NCBI RefSeq assembly: GCF_001427635.1
Contig: NZ_LMHA01000001.1
Coordinates: 1,533,415-1,560,967, forward strand
Direction of reading: 5' to 3'
Source: Pseudoxanthomonas sp. Root65
GTDB lineage: Bacteria > Pseudomonadota > Gammaproteobacteria > Xanthomonadales > Xanthomonadaceae
Length of the DNA: 27,553 nt
Made by a program: the position numbers and the translations under genes
The notes under the pieces: model-generated
Database searches by the model: none
Told to the model about the DNA's origin: nothing
The model's input: only the letters and a program-made list of their open reading frames with translations
In this document: in pieces, positions 1 through 5,971 of the stretch
Layout of the letters: the number at the start of each line of letters is the position of its first letter
Numbering within the stretch: position 1 is the first letter of the stretch

Positions 1-49
1 GAATTAAGCCGACCCGCGAAGCGGGTTCGGCTTGAATGAATTGTTAGGT
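1..49 (-). repeat. Integron attC site 1 (partial, cut by window edge)
   Basis: This is the recombination site at the 3' end of the leftmost cassette gene. The core GTTAGGT (43-49 on the plus strand, ACCTAAC in cassette orientation) and the central hairpin arms ACCCGC/GCGGGT match the four complete copies at 516, 859, 1193 and 1685. The distal R' core lies outside the window. The array therefore continues leftwards. Confidence 0.88.
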
Positions 50-511
50 TGCAACGCCGCCAAGCCTGCGCGCAACCGCTAGAACAATGATGGAGACAAG
101 CTCAAACGCTAGATAGCAAGCACCAAACACCGCGAGGAAGAACCAGCCGCTAGCACGGTTGGCGCCACAGTGCATCTCATTAAGGCAGCGGAATACGCCG
201 GCTATTTGCGGGATGCCAAATGCAATGGCCGCGATGGCAGCGGCACCTACAAGAATGAGAGCGGCCTTGCCAATGAGATTAAGGCAGCGGAATACGCCGG
301 CTATTTGCGGGATGCCAAATGCAATGGCCGCGATGGCAGCGGCACCTACAAGAATGAGAGCGGCCTTGCCAATGAGGGACGAACGCCACAGAAAGGCATT
401 GCGCCCTAGGGCAAGTGTCGCGCGGATTGGAAGTAGCGAAATGCCGAACAACCCAATAAACCCCAGGGCGTAGATGGACGAGGCAAACAGCTGATAGGGC
501 CAATCTGTCAT
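44..511 (-). CDS. Cassette-encoded small membrane protein with internal duplication
   Basis: I do not recognise this 155-aa protein. It is very hydrophobic, with a predicted membrane segment at about residues 10-28, two identical 33-residue units (about 46-78 and 79-111) that each hold one hydrophobic helix, and a last segment at about 123-146. The repeat comes from an exact 99-bp in-frame DNA duplication (179-277 and 278-376), so the ancestral protein was probably 122 aa with three helices instead of four. The extra helix would flip the predicted side of the C-terminus. The ATG at 511 follows the attC core GTTAGGT by only 6 nt, and the TAA stop lies inside the next attC core, so the gene fills its cassette. 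The function is unknown. Confidence 0.72.
   Translation of the reverse strand: MTDWPYQLFASSIYALGFIGLFGISLLPIRATLALGRNAFLWRSSLIGKAALILVGAAAIAAIAFGIPQIAGVFRCLNLIGKAALILVGAAAIAAIAFGIPQIAGVFRCLNEMHCGANRASGWFFLAVFGACYLAFELVSIIVLAVARRLGGVAT
179..376. repeat. Exact 99-bp tandem duplication inside a cassette gene
   Basis: Copy 1 is 179-277 and copy 2 is 278-376. I compared them base by base and found no difference. The unit is 33 codons, so the reading frame stays open. Perfect identity means either a very recent duplication or an assembly or sequencing artefact. Confidence 0.95.
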
Positions 512-515
512 TACA

Positions 516-575
516 ACCTAACACCTGAATTAAGCCGACCCGCGAAGCGGGTTCGGCTTGAATGAATTGTTAGGC
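516..575 (-). repeat. Integron attC site 2
   Basis: A 60-bp attC bounded by GCCTAAC (R'') and GTTAGGT (R') in cassette orientation. The folded strand (plus strand here) pairs TTAAGCCG with CGGCTTGAA, leaving an extra-helical G in CTTGAA, and pairs ACCCGC with GCGGGT around a GAA loop with an extra-helical T. These are the structural marks that integron integrases recognise. Confidence 0.93.
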
Positions 576-597
576 CGCAGCCTAGTTGGTGATTGAG

Positions 598-855
598 TCA
601 TTGCATGGGCCTCCGAACAGGAAACCATCGACCGAATATAGCCACAATGAACAAATACAGGACAAGAAAACTCAAAGCATAATCCGCTGCGCTCAGAGGA
701 ACGTTGCGGGTCCTAAAGTAGTGCCAGTTGATTGAGCTGGCAATCTGGTAGTTGATGATCCCGCCGCCCAGCAAGGCCAGGGCGACAAGAGCGATAAGCC
801 AGCGCCATAACGATCGCAGCCGCTTGCCTCTACCGTTGTCATGATTGTCTGACAT
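598..855 (-). CDS. Cassette-encoded small two-helix membrane protein
   Basis: An 85-aa protein that I do not recognise. A basic N-terminus (about residues 8-18, rich in Arg and Lys) precedes a hydrophobic helix at about 20-36. A second helix lies at about 59-76, before a basic Arg-rich C-terminus, so both ends are probably cytoplasmic by the positive-inside rule. I chose the ATG at 855, which follows the attC core GTTAGGC by three bases. An in-frame GTG four codons upstream lies inside the attC itself and is less likely. The AGG of the core, 4 nt before the ATG, is the only Shine-Dalgarno-like sequence. The function is unknown. Confidence 0.7.
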   Translation of the reverse strand: MSDNHDNGRGKRLRSLWRWLIALVALALLGGGIINYQIASSINWHYFRTRNVPLSAADYALSFLVLYLFIVAIFGRWFPVRRPMQ

Positions 856-858
856 GCG

Positions 859-918
859 GCCTAACACCGGAATTAAGCCGACCCGCGAAGCGGGTTCGGC
901 TTGAATGATTTGTTAGGC
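859..918 (-). repeat. Integron attC site 3
   Basis: A 60-bp attC with GCCTAAC and GTTAGGC cores. The hairpin is the same as in site 2. It differs by a T-to-G change in the left spacer (CACCGG) and a single change near the right core (TGATTTG). Confidence 0.93.
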
Positions 919-928
919 CGCAGACTCA

Positions 929-1189
929 TCAGCTGCGCCCGCGTCCCAGCCTGATCATAGCCACAATCACTAGTAGGCCGGAAGCTATCCAAGCGAATCC
1001 AATGACAAGATTGGAAAGCGGCGACCCGAGCAAGTCGAAGAGCGCTCGCTCCGTATTGCATTTGGCGCCGCAGTCGAGCATCGGCTCCGACGGGCTAAGG
1101 AACAACGCAATGGAACCATAGCCGATAGCAATCAGCCCAAGTAGCGAGCCAAAGATGGTGACGAACTTGGAGGTACGCCTATCTTTCAT
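929..1189 (-). CDS. Cassette-encoded small membrane protein with two cysteines
   Basis: An 86-aa protein that I do not recognise. It has a predicted helix at about residues 9-31, a polar loop of about 28 residues containing a CGAKC pair, and a second helix at about 60-79 followed by a basic tail. With the N-terminus inside, the two cysteines would face the periplasm and could form a disulfide, which is inference. The ATG at 1189 is three bases after the GTTAGGC core of its attC, as in the neighbouring cassettes. An upstream in-frame GTG lies within attC and was not used. The function is unknown. Confidence 0.68.
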   Translation of the reverse strand: MKDRRTSKFVTIFGSLLGLIAIGYGSIALFLSPSEPMLDCGAKCNTERALFDLLGSPLSNLVIGFAWIASGLLVIVAMIRLGRGRS

Positions 1190-1192
1190 GCG

Positions 1193-1252
1193 GCCTAACA
1201 CCTGAATTAAGCCGCGCCGCGAAGCGGCGTCGGCTTGAATGAACTGTTAGGG
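1193..1252 (-). repeat. Integron attC site 4 (hairpin variant)
   Basis: A 60-bp attC with cores CCCTAAC and GTTAGGC in cassette orientation. The inner stem is CGCCGC/GCGGCG instead of ACCCGC/GCGGGT. Both arms changed together, so pairing is kept while sequence is not. The extra-helical G (CTTGAA) and the extra T next to the stem are retained. Confidence 0.93.
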
Positions 1253-1672
1253 GCCATTGGAAGAAGCGCTCATCTGCAGCAACGGAATGATCACCGCTAA
1301 GAGACCCGTGCCACCAACAACGATGAAGGATAGGATGAAGCGCTTGTTGCCGAGCGTGCTTAGGCCCTTAGGCAAATAGTGGGCGACGTTCTGATCTTTG
1401 TAGATCTGCTCCAGTGCCGAGTGAACCGAATTGCAGATACGGCGGCTATTGATGAGCGCCAGCAATGCCGTGCAAGAGATCAATAGCGACCCAGCAGTGA
1501 ACAGCAAGTAGATCATCAGGTTGCCGCGCCCCTCAGACAATGAGCTGGCCTGAGCCCAATTGACGAATAGGACTAGGATGTTGAAAAGCACGCCAGACAC
1601 GACGAATACCGTGTCCGCGCGTCCGGCTCGATCCAGCTCGGACATCAGCTGTTTGTGGATGGCTTCGATCAT
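1247..1672 (-). CDS. Cassette-encoded three-helix membrane protein
   Basis: A 141-aa protein of unknown function. A short, probably helical, polar N-terminus (about residues 1-21) leads to a hydrophobic segment at about 22-40 and a second at about 53-75. A soluble stretch of about 34 residues (about 76-109) follows, and a third hydrophobic segment lies at about 111-130. This arrangement is seen in assorted small effector-like membrane proteins, but I see no diagnostic motif. The first in-frame ATG after the attC core is at 1672. An upstream GTG lies inside attC. The TAA stop overlaps the attC core at 1246-1252. Confidence 0.68.
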   Translation of the reverse strand: MIEAIHKQLMSELDRAGRADTVFVVSGVLFNILVLFVNWAQASSLSEGRGNLMIYLLFTAGSLLISCTALLALINSRRICNSVHSALEQIYKDQNVAHYLPKGLSTLGNKRFILSFIVVGGTGLLAVIIPLLQMSASSNGP

Positions 1673-1684
1673 GTTCGGTATGGC

Positions 1685-1744
1685 CCCTAACACCGGAATT
1701 AAGCCGACCCGCGAAGCGGGTTCGGCTTGAATGAATTGTTAGGG
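1685..1744 (-). repeat. Integron attC site 5
   Basis: A 60-bp attC with cores CCCTAAC and GTTAGGG in cassette orientation. The hairpin is identical to sites 1-3. The seventh base of GTTAGGG departs from the usual pyrimidine in GTTRRRY, matched by the complementary departure in the other core, so the two ends still pair. Confidence 0.92.
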
Positions 1745-2149
1745 CGCATTGGTTTGTGCCGCCAAGAACGCCCGGTTTGCCTCCGTGGCGGAAGCCAGTG
1801 TTGCCAAAAGATCCTTGGACAATGAGCGAATTGGCTCCCAAGCCGGATGTTGCATTGCTGCCAAATTTGGAACGCGACCAGAACCGGCGGGCATGTCGTC
1901 GACCGGGACAGGATGAACCGCGGCAAGGAACGTAAGGACGGCAGACTCTTGATGCTCTGTAAAGAGACCAGAGCCAATCAGGTAGTGACCAGCCAGTGCA
2001 TCATCTCGTAGCTCCCAAGCGGTGTTGTAGTCACCCATAGCCTCACACTGCTCTTCCGGCAAGCAGCTCAATGTCTCAACGGTGAAGATGAAGACGTCGT
2101 ACGCAAGATGCGACGCTTCTAGTACAGAAATTTGCTGTGGGTCTGACAT
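1739..2149 (-). CDS. First cassette: soluble protein of unknown function
   Basis: A 136-aa protein, the only one of the five cassette products without an obvious membrane segment. It is acidic and apparently helical, with a Cys pair (about residues 29 and 35). I do not recognise a domain. It could be a structural relative of other small integron-cassette proteins of unknown function. The ATG at 2149 follows the boundary core GTTAGGG by three bases. The TAA stop sits inside the attC at 1685-1744. As the gene nearest the array's 5' end, it would be the best expressed if the array is transcribed from the flank at about 2190-2225. Confidence 0.7.
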   Translation of the reverse strand: MSDPQQISVLEASHLAYDVFIFTVETLSCLPEEQCEAMGDYNTAWELRDDALAGHYLIGSGLFTEHQESAVLTFLAAVHPVPVDDMPAGSGRVPNLAAMQHPAWEPIRSLSKDLLATLASATEANRAFLAAQTNAP

Positions 2150-2152
2150 GCG

Positions 2153-2168
2153 CCCTAACACCTAGTAG
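2153..2168 (-). other. 5' boundary of the cassette array (attI-like or truncated attC)
   Basis: On the minus strand the sequence AGGTGTTAGGG precedes the first cassette. The last ten bases match the R' end of the attC sites, but beyond AGGTG the sequence changes and no attC hairpin follows. It is either the insertion point (attI) or the stump of a truncated attC. No integrase gene was found in the following DNA. Confidence 0.6.
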
Positions 2169-2183
2169 ACCCCATTCTGGGGT
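2169..2183. other. Short perfect hairpin in the array leader
   Basis: ACCCCA-TTC-TGGGGT is a perfect 6-bp inverted repeat between the candidate promoter and the first cassette start. It would lie near the 5' end of the array transcript. Confidence 0.5.
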
Positions 2184-2193
2184 GATAGCGCGG

Positions 2194-2223
2194 AGTATTC
2201 AGGTGGCGGGGTTGGGGCGTCAA
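2194..2223 (-). promoter_or_regulatory. Candidate promoter reading into the cassette array
   Basis: On the minus strand TTGACG (2218-2223) is followed after 18 bp by AATACT (2194-2199). These match sigma-70 -35 and -10 boxes at 5 of 6 and 4 of 6 positions. Transcription would start near 2187, about 40 nt before the first cassette ATG, the position expected of a cassette promoter. Confidence 0.45.
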
Positions 2224-2500
2224 CGTTGGAAAGGCATGGGCATCAAGGGCTTGCCGGGGTCGACCGGCGGCCGCCTGACTTTTCCTCGTGTCGATATCCG
2301 GGAGGAATGCGGGTATGGGTTGAATACCAGGGTGGGGTTGGGGTGATAGCGCCGTCGGTTCTCGTTGAAAGATCTATGTGGGATCGACGAAGTTGATTGC
2401 GGGATGAGGGTTTGCTGACGTGTTTGGCGCGATCCGGTCGTTGGCGTGGGGTGGATAGGCGTTCAGGCATCAAATGTGAGAGGTGGCTCCGCTCGGCGGC

Positions 2501-5500
2501 TTACTCCGGCATGGACGCGGGTGCAGGCACGTGGTGCGCGGCGAGAAACGCGCGCAGGGAGGCGGGCTTCACGGGTTTGGTGAGGAGGCGATAGCCGCGT
2601 TCGCGGGCGTCGCGCTTGAGTTCGTCGCGGCCGTCGGCGGTGAGCAGCGCGCCGGCGATGGGGCCGGGGCTGGCGGCGCGCAGGGCGTCGAGGATGGCGA
2701 GGCCGTCGAGGCGGTCGTGCAGGTGGTAGTCCACCAGCATCACGGCCGGGCCTTCTGCGATCTTCTGCAGGGCTTCGTCGACGGTGGTGGCGGTGATGAC
2801 CTCCACCTGCCAGCGTCCGAGCAGGGCCTGCATGCCGTCGATGATCTCGCGGTCGTTGTCCACGCACAGCACGCGCAGGCCGGCCAGCGAGTCGTTGGCC
2901 AGGGTGCTTCGACGCGGTGTGGCGCGGCGCTCGTTGAGCTGGGTGCCGCGGGGCACGACGATGCAGAACATGCTGCCGCGGTCGACGGTGCTGCGCGCAT
3001 CCAGTTCGTGTTGCAGCAGGCGCGAGATGCGCTGGCAGATGGACAGGCCCAGGCCGAGGCCGCGTTCGCCCCAGTCGAACGGCTGCTGGTAGCGGTGGAA
3101 CTCGTCGTAGATCTGTCGCATGTGGTTTTCGGGAATGCCCGGCCCGGTGTCCCAGACCTGCAGGGCGATACGTTCACCTTGCGCGCGCATGCCGATGACG
3201 ATGCGGCCCTCGCGCGTGTAGCGCAGCGCGTTGGCGAGGAAGTTCTGCAGCACGCGGCGCAGCAGGCGGCGATCGCTGCGTACGGGAATCGCACGCGCGT
3301 GCACGCGCAGCTTCAGCCCGCGGCCAGCGGCGACCGGGGCATACTGCGCCGCCAGTTCGCGCATCAGTTCGCCGGCATCGAAGTCGGTGATCTGCGTCTG
3401 CAGGCCACCAGCATCCAGGCGCGAGACGTCGAGCAGGCCGTCCAGCAGTTCCTCGGCGGCGCGCAGCGAGGCATCGACGCGTTCGGCCAGGTGCTGGCGC
3501 TCCTGCGCCTGCGCATCATCGCCCTGCTCGCTGTCGCGCAGGGCACTGACGAACAGGCGCGCGGCATTGAGTGGTTGCAGCACGTCGTGGCTGATCGCGG
3601 CGAGGAAGCGCGTACGCGACTGCTGCGCGTGCTCGGCGGCTTCGCTACGCTCGGCGACGCGCTGCTCCAGCGTCTCGTTGGTCTCCAGCAGCAGCGCTTC
3701 GGCATGTTTGAAGTCGGTGATGTCGTTGTAGCTGGTGACGTAGCCGCCGCCCGGCAGCGGTTGGCCGCGCATCTCGATCACCTGCCCATCGGCGCGCACG
3801 CGCTCGAAGATGTGCGGCGAGCCCGCGCGCATGTAGCGGATGCGCTTGTTGATCTGCGCATCAATGTCGCCTTCGCCCAGCTCGCCGCGCTCGGCGTTGT
3901 AACGGATCAGGTCGGCGACCGGGCGGCCGACGTAGAGCATGCCGTCGGGATAGCCGAACATCTGCTGGTAGCGGCGGTTCCAGGCGACCAGACGCATCTG
4001 CGGGTCGACCACGCTGACGCCGGCGCTGATGTTCTCCAGCGTCGTCGACAGGATCTCGCGGTTGAAGCGCAGTTCCTGCCCCGCCTGGTCGAGCACCGCC
4101 ACCACTTCGCCCAGCTCCATGCCCGAGCCGCGCAGCACGCTGGTCAACACGATGCGCGCGGACGCGGCCCCGATGGCGGCGGCGAGCAGGCGTTCGGTGA
4201 ACTGCACCCAGGCGCGGTCGGCCGGGACGTTGGGCTGGTATTCGCGTCCCAGTATCTGCGCCTGTTCGGCGAAGGCGCGGCGCGCATGGCGTTCCCCCAC
4301 CACGCGCTCGGCCAGCGTGCGCAGGTCGCCCACGCGCACGCTACCGGGCCACTCGCCGGCGACCAGCGCGGGACGCTGTGCGTAGGGATCGAGGAACGGG
4401 GCGGCGCGCAGGCGCTCGTCCACGCCGGGACGCGAGCGCGCCGACACGATCATCATCGCGCCGGTGTTCACCAGCAGCGACCAGAACGTGCCGTGCGTCA
4501 GCGTGTCCCAGCCGCTCAGGCCGAACAGCTGCTGCGGGCGCAGCCAGCGGATGCCGAACGGCCCGTCGTGCAGCCACAGCACGTCGAACCAGCCGGCCTG
4601 CGTCATGGTCGGCAGCAGCAGCGTGTAGATCCAGGTGGCGAAGCCGAGCACCATGCCGGCTTCCACGCCACGCCGGCTGGCACCGCGCCAGTACAGGCCG
4701 CCGATCAGGCCGGGAGCGAACTGCGCCACCGCCGCGAACGCCATCAGGCCGTACGAGGCCAGCGTGCTGTCGTTGCCGCTGCTGCGGTAGTAGCTGTAGG
4801 CGGTCAGCGCCAGCAGCAGGATCGCCACGCGGCGGATCCACAGCACGCGCGAGGCGACGTCGGCTTCCGCGTGGCGCTTGCCCCAGCCTCGGCGCAGCAG
4901 CACCGGCATGACCAGGTCGTTGCTGACCATCGTCGCCAGCGCGATGCTGGCCACGATCACCATGCCGGTGGCGGCGGAAAAGCCGCCGACGTAGGCGATG
5001 ATCGCCAGCGCCGTGCGGCCTTCGGCCAGCGGCAGCGCCAGCACGTAGCTGTCGTCGGCCACGCTGGTGCCACCGAACAGCGACGCACCGGCGGCGGCGA
5101 TCGGCACCACCATCAGCGAGAACAGCGCCAGGTAGCCGCCGAACAGCCAGCGTGCCTTGCGGATGTCGCCCACGTCGCTGCACTCCACCACCGCGACATG
5201 GAACTGGCGCGGCAGGCAGACGATGGCCAGGAAGCCGAGCAGCGTCTGCGCGATGAAGCCCACCGGCGGCGCGTTCTCGAACAGCGTGCGCGCAGAGTCG
5301 GTGATGCGGAAGGTGTTGTCGCCCAGCCACAGGTAGGCGAACACGCCCACCGCGATCATCGCCACCAGCTTGACCACCGATTCCAGCGAGATGGCCAGCA
5401 TCATGCCGTGGTGGTGCTCGGTGGCGTCCACCTGGCGCGTACCGAACAGCGCGGCGAACAGCGCCATCAGCAGCGCCACGTACAGCGCCGGATCGGTGAA

Positions 5501-5971
5501 GAAACCCTGCGTGCTGTCGCCGCCGTCGCCGCTGAGCACGCTCAGGCTCATCGCCACGGCCTTGTACTGCAGCGCCAGGTACGGCACCACGCCGATCAGC
5601 GCGATCACCGTGACCAGTGCGGCCAGCCGGCGCGAGCGGCCGTAGCGCGAGGAGATGAAGTCGGCGATGGAGACCGTGTTCTCGCTGCGCGCGATCAGCG
5701 CCAGCCGTTCGATGATGCGCCAGCCAAACAGCAACAGCAGCACCGGGCCCAGGTAGATCGGAAGGTAGCCCAGGCCATTGCGCACCGCGCTGCCGACCGC
5801 GCCGTAGAAGGTCCACGACGAGCAGTACACCGCCAGCGCCAGGCTGTAGACCACCGGTCGCAGCCAGGGACGGTCCGGGTACATCGGGCGGCGGTCGCCC
5901 CACCACGCCACGCCGAACAGCAGCGCGGCGTAGCCGACCGACACCAACAGCAGGATCCAGCTGGAAACCAA
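2501..5971 (-). CDS. SLC5-transporter hybrid sensor histidine kinase/response regulator (CrbS/MxtR-like)
   Basis: An 1156-aa inner-membrane sensor. Residues 1-510 carry about 13 hydrophobic segments of the sodium/solute symporter (SLC5) type. Residues about 515-625 form a linker where STAC domains lie in this family, and a PAS domain is at about 640-755. The H-box is AAISHDVLQP with phospho-accepting His795. The ATPase domain has an N-box at about 910-917, DTGPGIP (941-947) and GLGLGLSI (971-978). The C-terminal receiver has acidic D1038/D1040, phospho-acceptor D1081 and K1132. This order and length match CrbS of Vibrio and MxtR of Pseudomonas, which act with a separate LuxR-type regulator on acetate use; no partner gene is in this window. 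The start is TTG, supported by GGGGAG 6 nt upstream. It lies 63 bp downstream of the FAD protein gene and has its own candidate -10. Confidence 0.9.
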   Translation of the reverse strand: MVSSWILLLVSVGYAALLFGVAWWGDRRPMYPDRPWLRPVVYSLALAVYCSSWTFYGAVGSAVRNGLGYLPIYLGPVLLLLFGWRIIERLALIARSENTVSIADFISSRYGRSRRLAALVTVIALIGVVPYLALQYKAVAMSLSVLSGDGGDSTQGFFTDPALYVALLMALFAALFGTRQVDATEHHHGMMLAISLESVVKLVAMIAVGVFAYLWLGDNTFRITDSARTLFENAPPVGFIAQTLLGFLAIVCLPRQFHVAVVECSDVGDIRKARWLFGGYLALFSLMVVPIAAAGASLFGGTSVADDSYVLALPLAEGRTALAIIAYVGGFSAATGMVIVASIALATMVSNDLVMPVLLRRGWGKRHAEADVASRVLWIRRVAILLLALTAYSYYRSSGNDSTLASYGLMAFAAVAQFAPGLIGGLYWRGASRRGVEAGMVLGFATWIYTLLLPTMTQAGWFDVLWLHDGPFGIRWLRPQQLFGLSGWDTLTHGTFWSLLVNTGAMMIVSARSRPGVDERLRAAPFLDPYAQRPALVAGEWPGSVRVGDLRTLAERVVGERHARRAFAEQAQILGREYQPNVPADRAWVQFTERLLAAAIGAASARIVLTSVLRGSGMELGEVVAVLDQAGQELRFNREILSTTLENISAGVSVVDPQMRLVAWNRRYQQMFGYPDGMLYVGRPVADLIRYNAERGELGEGDIDAQINKRIRYMRAGSPHIFERVRADGQVIEMRGQPLPGGGYVTSYNDITDFKHAEALLLETNETLEQRVAERSEAAEHAQQSRTRFLAAISHDVLQPLNAARLFVSALRDSEQGDDAQAQERQHLAERVDASLRAAEELLDGLLDVSRLDAGGLQTQITDFDAGELMRELAAQYAPVAAGRGLKLRVHARAIPVRSDRRLLRRVLQNFLANALRYTREGRIVIGMRAQGERIALQVWDTGPGIPENHMRQIYDEFHRYQQPFDWGERGLGLGLSICQRISRLLQHELDARSTVDRGSMFCIVVPRGTQLNERRATPRRSTLANDSLAGLRVLCVDNDREIIDGMQALLGRWQVEVITATTVDEALQKIAEGPAVMLVDYHLHDRLDGLAILDALRAASPGPIAGALLTADGRDELKRDARERGYRLLTKPVKPASLRAFLAAHHVPAPASMPE

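Follow-up and report, generated by a model that had tools for sequence, protein, structure and literature searches.

We analyzed a stretch of 27,553 nucleotides from Pseudoxanthomonas sp. Root65 (C1:1533415-1560967, hereafter the window), the left end of which carries an array of integron cassettes next to a sensor kinase gene. The host genome comprises 3.89 Mb in 6 contigs and is labeled G000; G numbers denote the genomes compared, L numbers the fetched loci and C numbers contigs. Within positions 1-2160, five minus-strand cassette open reading frames (ORFs) alternate with near-identical attC sites (Table 1), and this arrangement, proposed in a preliminary description of the sequence, was borne out by repeat comparison as well as by a covariance model. 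The attC repeats are 82-96% alike across 67 nt and the second array of the genome holds many copies of each of them. In a whole-genome search the four complete window sites reached 88-93 bits (E 1.5e-22 to 3e-21) with the covariance model, which was trained on 20 attC sites including these four. The array extends to the left of the window, to about C1:1530150-1530493, and contains in total 13 attC sites according to the covariance model (C1:1530493 to C1:1535158) or 14 according to a hidden Markov model (HMM), one of them a partial copy. Beyond it lie an ORF of 151 amino acids (aa), a LuxR-type regulator and acs; the integrase gene that the preliminary description had considered directly left of the window was therefore rejected. 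The regulator and the kinase, which we take to be CrbR-like and CrbS-like, are named accordingly here, and NCBIfam describes the former as ErdR-like with a score below the cut-off.

The stretch 2160-2500 between the first cassette and the kinase gene had been regarded as non-coding. However, an attI site is located at 2150-2243, in which the recombination point CCTAAC (2154-2159) is followed by a conserved core (2160-2202) and a conserved CGTCAA motif (2218-2223). An attI profile trained without the window matches 2151-2231 with an E-value of 3e-22 (search of 4 loci), and a comparison with the attI of the complete integron of the same genome revealed 46 of 56 bases alike (pairwise E 1e-10), the two sites being similar and still different from each other. 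Furthermore, a profile of 10 intI-linked platforms, built only from other Pseudoxanthomonas species and none from G000, matches 2151-2350 (E 3.7e-21, search of 4 loci), a span comprising attI and the leader as well as the first intI codons. On the cassette strand the CGTCAA motif reads TTGACG and lies 18 nt before AATACT, which suggests a cassette promoter (Pc); across 12 aligned attI sites TTGACG is invariant and the GAGTATT block is conserved. With a leader-only profile, 7 of 14 crbS flanks fall below E 1e-3 (11.7-24.4 bits) in a shared register, whereas the best of 280 shuffled flanks reached only 3.7 bits. A tblastn search past the first intI codons at the crbS platform found nothing of intI. 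An intI remnant between 2160 and 2500, which the earlier reading had looked upon as evidence against itself, is hence present in a weak form, as a collinear degenerate leader and a remnant of the first codons. A second copy of TGGGGTGATAGCGC at 2339 was considered as a second attI and rejected because it falls within this remnant; the first intI codons in other species read similarly to the stretch around this copy.

The absence of an integrase gene beside the array was confirmed by tblastn using the genome's own IntI, which gave a best E-value of 0.69 in the 18-kb locus and the window. The whole-genome check for intI and attC detected a sole integron integrase at C3:244059-245063, on another contig than the window. 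It is an intact ORF with the conserved recombinase motifs and 473 bits against TIGR02249 (cut-off 265), and it belongs to a complete integron, in which a separate attI and 21 attC sites lie upstream of intI and a ComEC-like gene lies downstream.

Table 1. Features at the left end of the window (positions within the window).
Feature	Position	Strand	Remarks
attC site, truncated at the window edge	1..48 (about)	-	preceding base is N; inside a 99-nt duplication
Cassette ORF, 155 aa	44..511	-	no match in Pfam, NCBIfam or PADLOC; holds an exact 99-nt tandem repeat (179-376)
attC site	516..575	-	repeat comparison and covariance model
Cassette ORF, 89 aa	598..867	-	no family match
attC site	859..918	-	repeat comparison and covariance model
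Cassette ORF, 90 aa	929..1201	-	no family match
attC site, variant central stem	1193..1252	-	repeat comparison and covariance model
Cassette ORF, 148 aa with GTG start (searched as the 141-aa form starting at ATG 1672)	1247..1693	-	no family match
attC site, first cassette (proximal to attI)	1685..1744	-	repeat comparison and covariance model
First cassette ORF, 140 aa with GTG start (searched as the 136-aa form starting at ATG 2149)	1739..2161	-	no family match
attI site	2150..2243	+	attI model 82.2 bits, E 5.9e-23 (training set includes the window)
Candidate cassette promoter Pc, toward the cassettes	2194..2223	-	-35 TTGACG (2223-2218), 18-nt spacer, -10 AATACT (2199-2194)
Degenerate intI leader with remains of the first intI codons	2224..2396	+	platform profile to 2350; leader-only profile about 2292-2396
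Hybrid sensor kinase, CrbS-like	2501..5971	-	NCBIfam NahK/ErcS-family C-terminus; right array border in 15 species

A comparison of the crbS locus across the genus, covering the 28 of 38 genus genomes for which the locus search returned it, revealed that the position of the array is conserved. A crbS tree calculated from 26 genomes of the genus unites all 15 species that have attC or attI at crbS in one clade (support 100/99), and 14 of these keep attI. The order crbR-array-attI-crbS without intI is also found in G015 and G037, which are both single-contig genomes, as well as in G017 and G020, and CrbR is located on the far side of the array in these four, in G000 and in G014. The arrays at this locus are as large as about 30 (G008) and 40 (G037) attC sites. 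In G030 the contig stops 81 bp left of attI and the cassettes are therefore not visible. No attI or attC match was obtained with the HMMs in the 1.5 kb beside 15 other crbS loci (L035-L049, 13 from the genus and 2 from the family), and one of them (L047) shows a single 18-bp BLAST match to attC. The gap between crbR and crbS is about 110 bp in G016 and about 1.2 kb in G026, where attI and attC are both missing.

To compare the conservation of both parts of the platform, identities across species were calculated in fixed windows that require no motif, with shuffled sequences as reference. An earlier version anchored on CGTCAA and parts of the core, in which the identity arises partly by construction, gave the same picture. 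The attI core at crbS has an identity of 0.863 in 14 species (shuffled 0.694). In 11 species, without the divergent attI type of G029, G037 and G020, the values are 0.882 at crbS (shuffled 0.717) and 0.869 beside intI (shuffled 0.716). The leader (offset 75-165) reaches 0.728 at crbS (shuffled 0.719) vs 0.773 beside intI (shuffled 0.710). The attI core at crbS is thus as conserved as the one beside intI, while the adjacent leader has drifted almost to the level of the shuffled sequences.

Additional evidence comes from the cassettes. We cut 488 cassettes from 54 arrays and computed pairwise identities, excluding cassettes of at most 120 nt or at least 1,500 nt, attC sites weaker than E 1e-9 and alignments covering less than 60% of the shorter cassette. 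Pairs with at least 98% identity make up 18 of 4,621 comparisons between different arrays of one genome (all from G008, G015, G024 and G037) vs 4 of 109,334 between genomes, a contrast that is partly expected, since the genomes belong to different species. The crbS array and the intI array share cassettes with more than 97.5% identity in five of the 12 genomes that yielded cassettes from both arrays (G000, G008, G015, G024, G037), and this comparison demonstrates an exchange of cassettes between the two arrays. In G000, crbS cassette 7 (counted raw; number 6 once the artefact site is left out) corresponds to the first cassette of the intI array with 97.9% over 280 nt. At the junction, which was inspected in G000 alone, the identity toward attI breaks off exactly at CCTAAC, beyond which one array continues with attI and the other with attC; on the opposite side it ends within the attC/CCTAAC border. 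In the single-contig genome G037 the crbS positions 3, 26, 27 and 28 are cassettes of the intI array with 99-100% identity; position 3, close to attI, equals position 34 of the intI array with 100%.

By the usual definition the array is a cluster of attC sites without a nearby integrase gene (CALIN), one of the two options that the preliminary description had offered. The other option, an array that has lost its platform, does not fit, as only the integrase gene is lost and attI, the candidate Pc and a decayed leader remain. We assume, with a probability of roughly three in four, that the window array represents a chromosomal integron which was truncated and is still served in trans by the distant IntI. 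In this scenario an integron platform would have come between the CrbR-like and CrbS-like genes, which are convergent, in the ancestor of the Pseudoxanthomonas clade and would subsequently have lost all of intI except the first codons, while attI and probably Pc were kept. The complete integron, which adjoins the comEC-like gene, would supply the single IntI, and this may excise cassettes from either array and insert them at either attI, where Pc could express them. Insertion at the crbS attI, activity of Pc and a selection that keeps attI are inferred here from sequence comparison.

Several observations weigh against this interpretation, and some of them are in line with a passive relic, i.e. 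a dead integron with an attI that is undecayed but unused, in which cassettes became shared via attC x attC or homologous recombination. Such an exchange could take place without the crbS attI, and the three neighboring matches at positions 26-28 of G037 may represent one block. The gene intI is gone and its leader decayed, and some copies are clearly dying: G014 has only attC sites at crbS and has lost attI, G017 just three weak attC sites, and two further attI-like sites of G000 (C1:1218984 and C1:1227702, see below) are weak. A recently shared cassette is missing in seven of 12 genomes, which reach at most 91% identity or share none, although several of them yield few cassettes because their contigs end. 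Likewise, the array at ilvD and the second array are not linked by any cassette pair of at least 90% in the three Xanthomonas genomes compared. The similarity of the crbS attI to the intI-linked attI is higher within genomes (0.866 vs 0.801, permutation p 5e-5; G020, in which the intI-linked attI was not found, was left out), but the own pair is the best one in only six of 13 genomes, and compared with the nearest relative it is better in eight, tied in one and worse in four. In G000 itself the core of the crbS attI is no closer to its own intI-linked attI than to others (rank 10 of 13). We therefore did not rely on a concerted evolution of the two attI sites of a genome, the signal of which is weaker against the nearest relatives and absent in G000. 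Nevertheless, we consider the passive relic unlikely, as the attI core is conserved like the intI-linked sites next to a leader near the shuffle level in 11 species, attI is retained in nearly the whole clade, and a recently shared cassette is also found near attI (position 3 in G037).

Integrases reportedly insert cassettes off-target as well, at attG sites, as Loot and colleagues are said to have described in 2024. An array that arose in this way at a chance genomic site would never have had a platform. Off-target insertion is also cited in the available text of PMC12444791. However, the window array is bordered by a full attI, including the conserved core and CGTCAA, that runs into a collinear intI leader, and the same site is in place in 14 species. 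The homology of attI and leader refutes attG insertion, to which we assign hardly any weight. An assembly artefact, by which part of the complete integron would have been misplaced or intI would have been lost at a contig join, might be suspected in a 6-contig draft with an N and two exact 99-nt duplications inside the array, but it is highly improbable in view of the same gene order without intI in four other genomes, two of them single-contig, and of the difference between the two attI sites of G000. The duplications themselves, one at 179-376 and another spanning the N at C1:1533414 just left of base 1, are probably assembly artefacts typical of unmerged contig overlaps. The ORF 44-511 may therefore be mis-assembled; its cassette recurs at 98% and without the duplication as the third from attI in the complete integron.

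Orphan attI sites are not restricted to crbS. With the attI model at E <= 1e-3, 21 of the 38 genus genomes contain 2-6 attI-like sites, and an intI match is present in 28 of the 38, a single one in 24 of these. Besides crbS, 35 orphan attI sites were found in the fetched DNA. Same-strand attC accompanies 33 of them on the side of the cassettes and 3 on the other side; the two without cassette-side attC are close to contig ends. Fragments of intI occur at 8 of the non-crbS orphan loci and at no crbS locus. Some of these loci are common to several species, one of them, located beside a PhzF-like gene in G000, to five and another one to three. The weaker attI-like sites of G000 at C1:1227702-1227793 (L012 5704-5793) and C1:1218984-1219055 (L196 12984-13056) have attC on the cassette side and flanks that recur in four and two other species, respectively; no intI match was obtained at either site.

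In a family-wide search, attI matches at E 1e-5 were reached in 38 of 247 genomes and 13 of 54 genera. The genus g39, which we equate with Xanthomonas on account of the intI next to ilvD in G131, shows its own attI pattern in 26 of 35 genomes and twice in 14 of them, compared with 3 matches in 2 genomes in the reversed control. In 12 of the 14 genomes with two sites, one site is followed by just an intI fragment, the exceptions being G323 and G325. In G131 and G183 the second attI and a broken intI adjoin secF/secD, with 17 and 20 same-strand attC sites (the neighboring genes were assigned by Pfam in G131 only). This position corresponds to a published location of Xanthomonas CALINs, at secF, as given in the available text of PMC12444791.

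It is possible, and we suggest this more tentatively than the reading of the window array itself, that the integrons of this family are distributed systems, in which one IntI would serve several chromosomal attI-Pc docking sites, cassettes could pass from one expression slot to a distant other one, and many of the conserved "CALINs" would be satellite platforms kept by selection. If many CALINs hold a cryptic attI, they would be capture-ready platforms sharing an integrase, and the cassette capacity per genome would be larger and more dispersed than counts of one integron imply. This could also explain the conserved positions of the CALINs in Xanthomonas, as far as they are described in the available text of PMC12444791.

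The window array shares its near-identical attC sites, small cassette genes of unknown function, attI and candidate Pc with sedentary chromosomal integrons but lacks intI in cis. With CALINs it shares attC-delimited cassettes without intI nearby, and it differs from them by attI, a probable Pc, the remnant of the intI leader and an orthologous locus across a clade. The papers cited in the following by PMC number are quoted from the parts of their text available. Proposed origins of CALINs are off-target insertion, loss of intI and rearrangement (PMC8618304). IntegronFinder detects attI for class 1 only (PMC9024848), so that CALINs with other attI types are easily missed. The closest printed precedent found is a CALIN with its own attI in a Shewanella sp. 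prophage (PMC9892861), an integrase-less array with the attI type of the complete integron beside it. In contrast to the crbS platform this is a single inactive prophage, and the available parts of the paper mention neither a conserved locus nor a cross-species comparison. Xanthomonas has been described to carry an integron at ilvD as well as CALINs in conserved places, for instance at secF/lamG (PMC12444791). The likeness lies in one intI locus with integrase-less arrays at conserved positions; attI is unmentioned in the available text on Xanthomonas, whereas the conserved position in Pseudoxanthomonas goes along with a retained attI. Delta-attI-type cassettes of mobile integrons also carry attI in an unusual place, usable by IntI1 (PMC12901181), but there the attI pieces are part of the cassettes, whereas the attI of the window is the fixed end of the array. 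In the literature searched, which left most subscription papers outside and was partly available as text, neither a conserved multi-species attI platform without integrase nor a system of several attI sites with one IntI was reported, and this is weak evidence of absence.

None of the five cassette proteins of the window matched an entry in PADLOC, Pfam or NCBIfam, and Rfam at gathering thresholds gave no match in the window. G000 contains another integrase-less attC cluster at C1:1330242-1332773 (6 HMM matches in L011) with no detectable attI.

Some further observations concern individual platforms in other genomes. G002 carries five orphan attI platforms (L171-L175), four of which are 93-98% identical to the intI-linked one just past attI, whereas the fifth is divergent. 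Three of the four end near a common point soon after the intI start codon and the other one reaches further into intI; a precise mobile unit was considered as a possibility for the three copies ending alike. In L146 (13893-13981, G017 C4) an internal attI, 1.7 kb from a second and complete attI, is fused to attC at GATAAC/GCC inside the attI core, which looks like an insertion at a secondary crossover point. L112 (G037) and L113 (G035) contain a second integron integrase with 50-53% identity and a different attI-like sequence upstream. In L132 from Luteimonas suaedae intI is present in two overlapping pieces in different frames, which suggests a broken gene, and the attI is of the same type. 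Finally, the 3' end of the host gene faces the platform in four cases, namely the crbS-like gene at 2501 in the window, the phzF-like gene in L012, ilvD in L229 and secF in L278.

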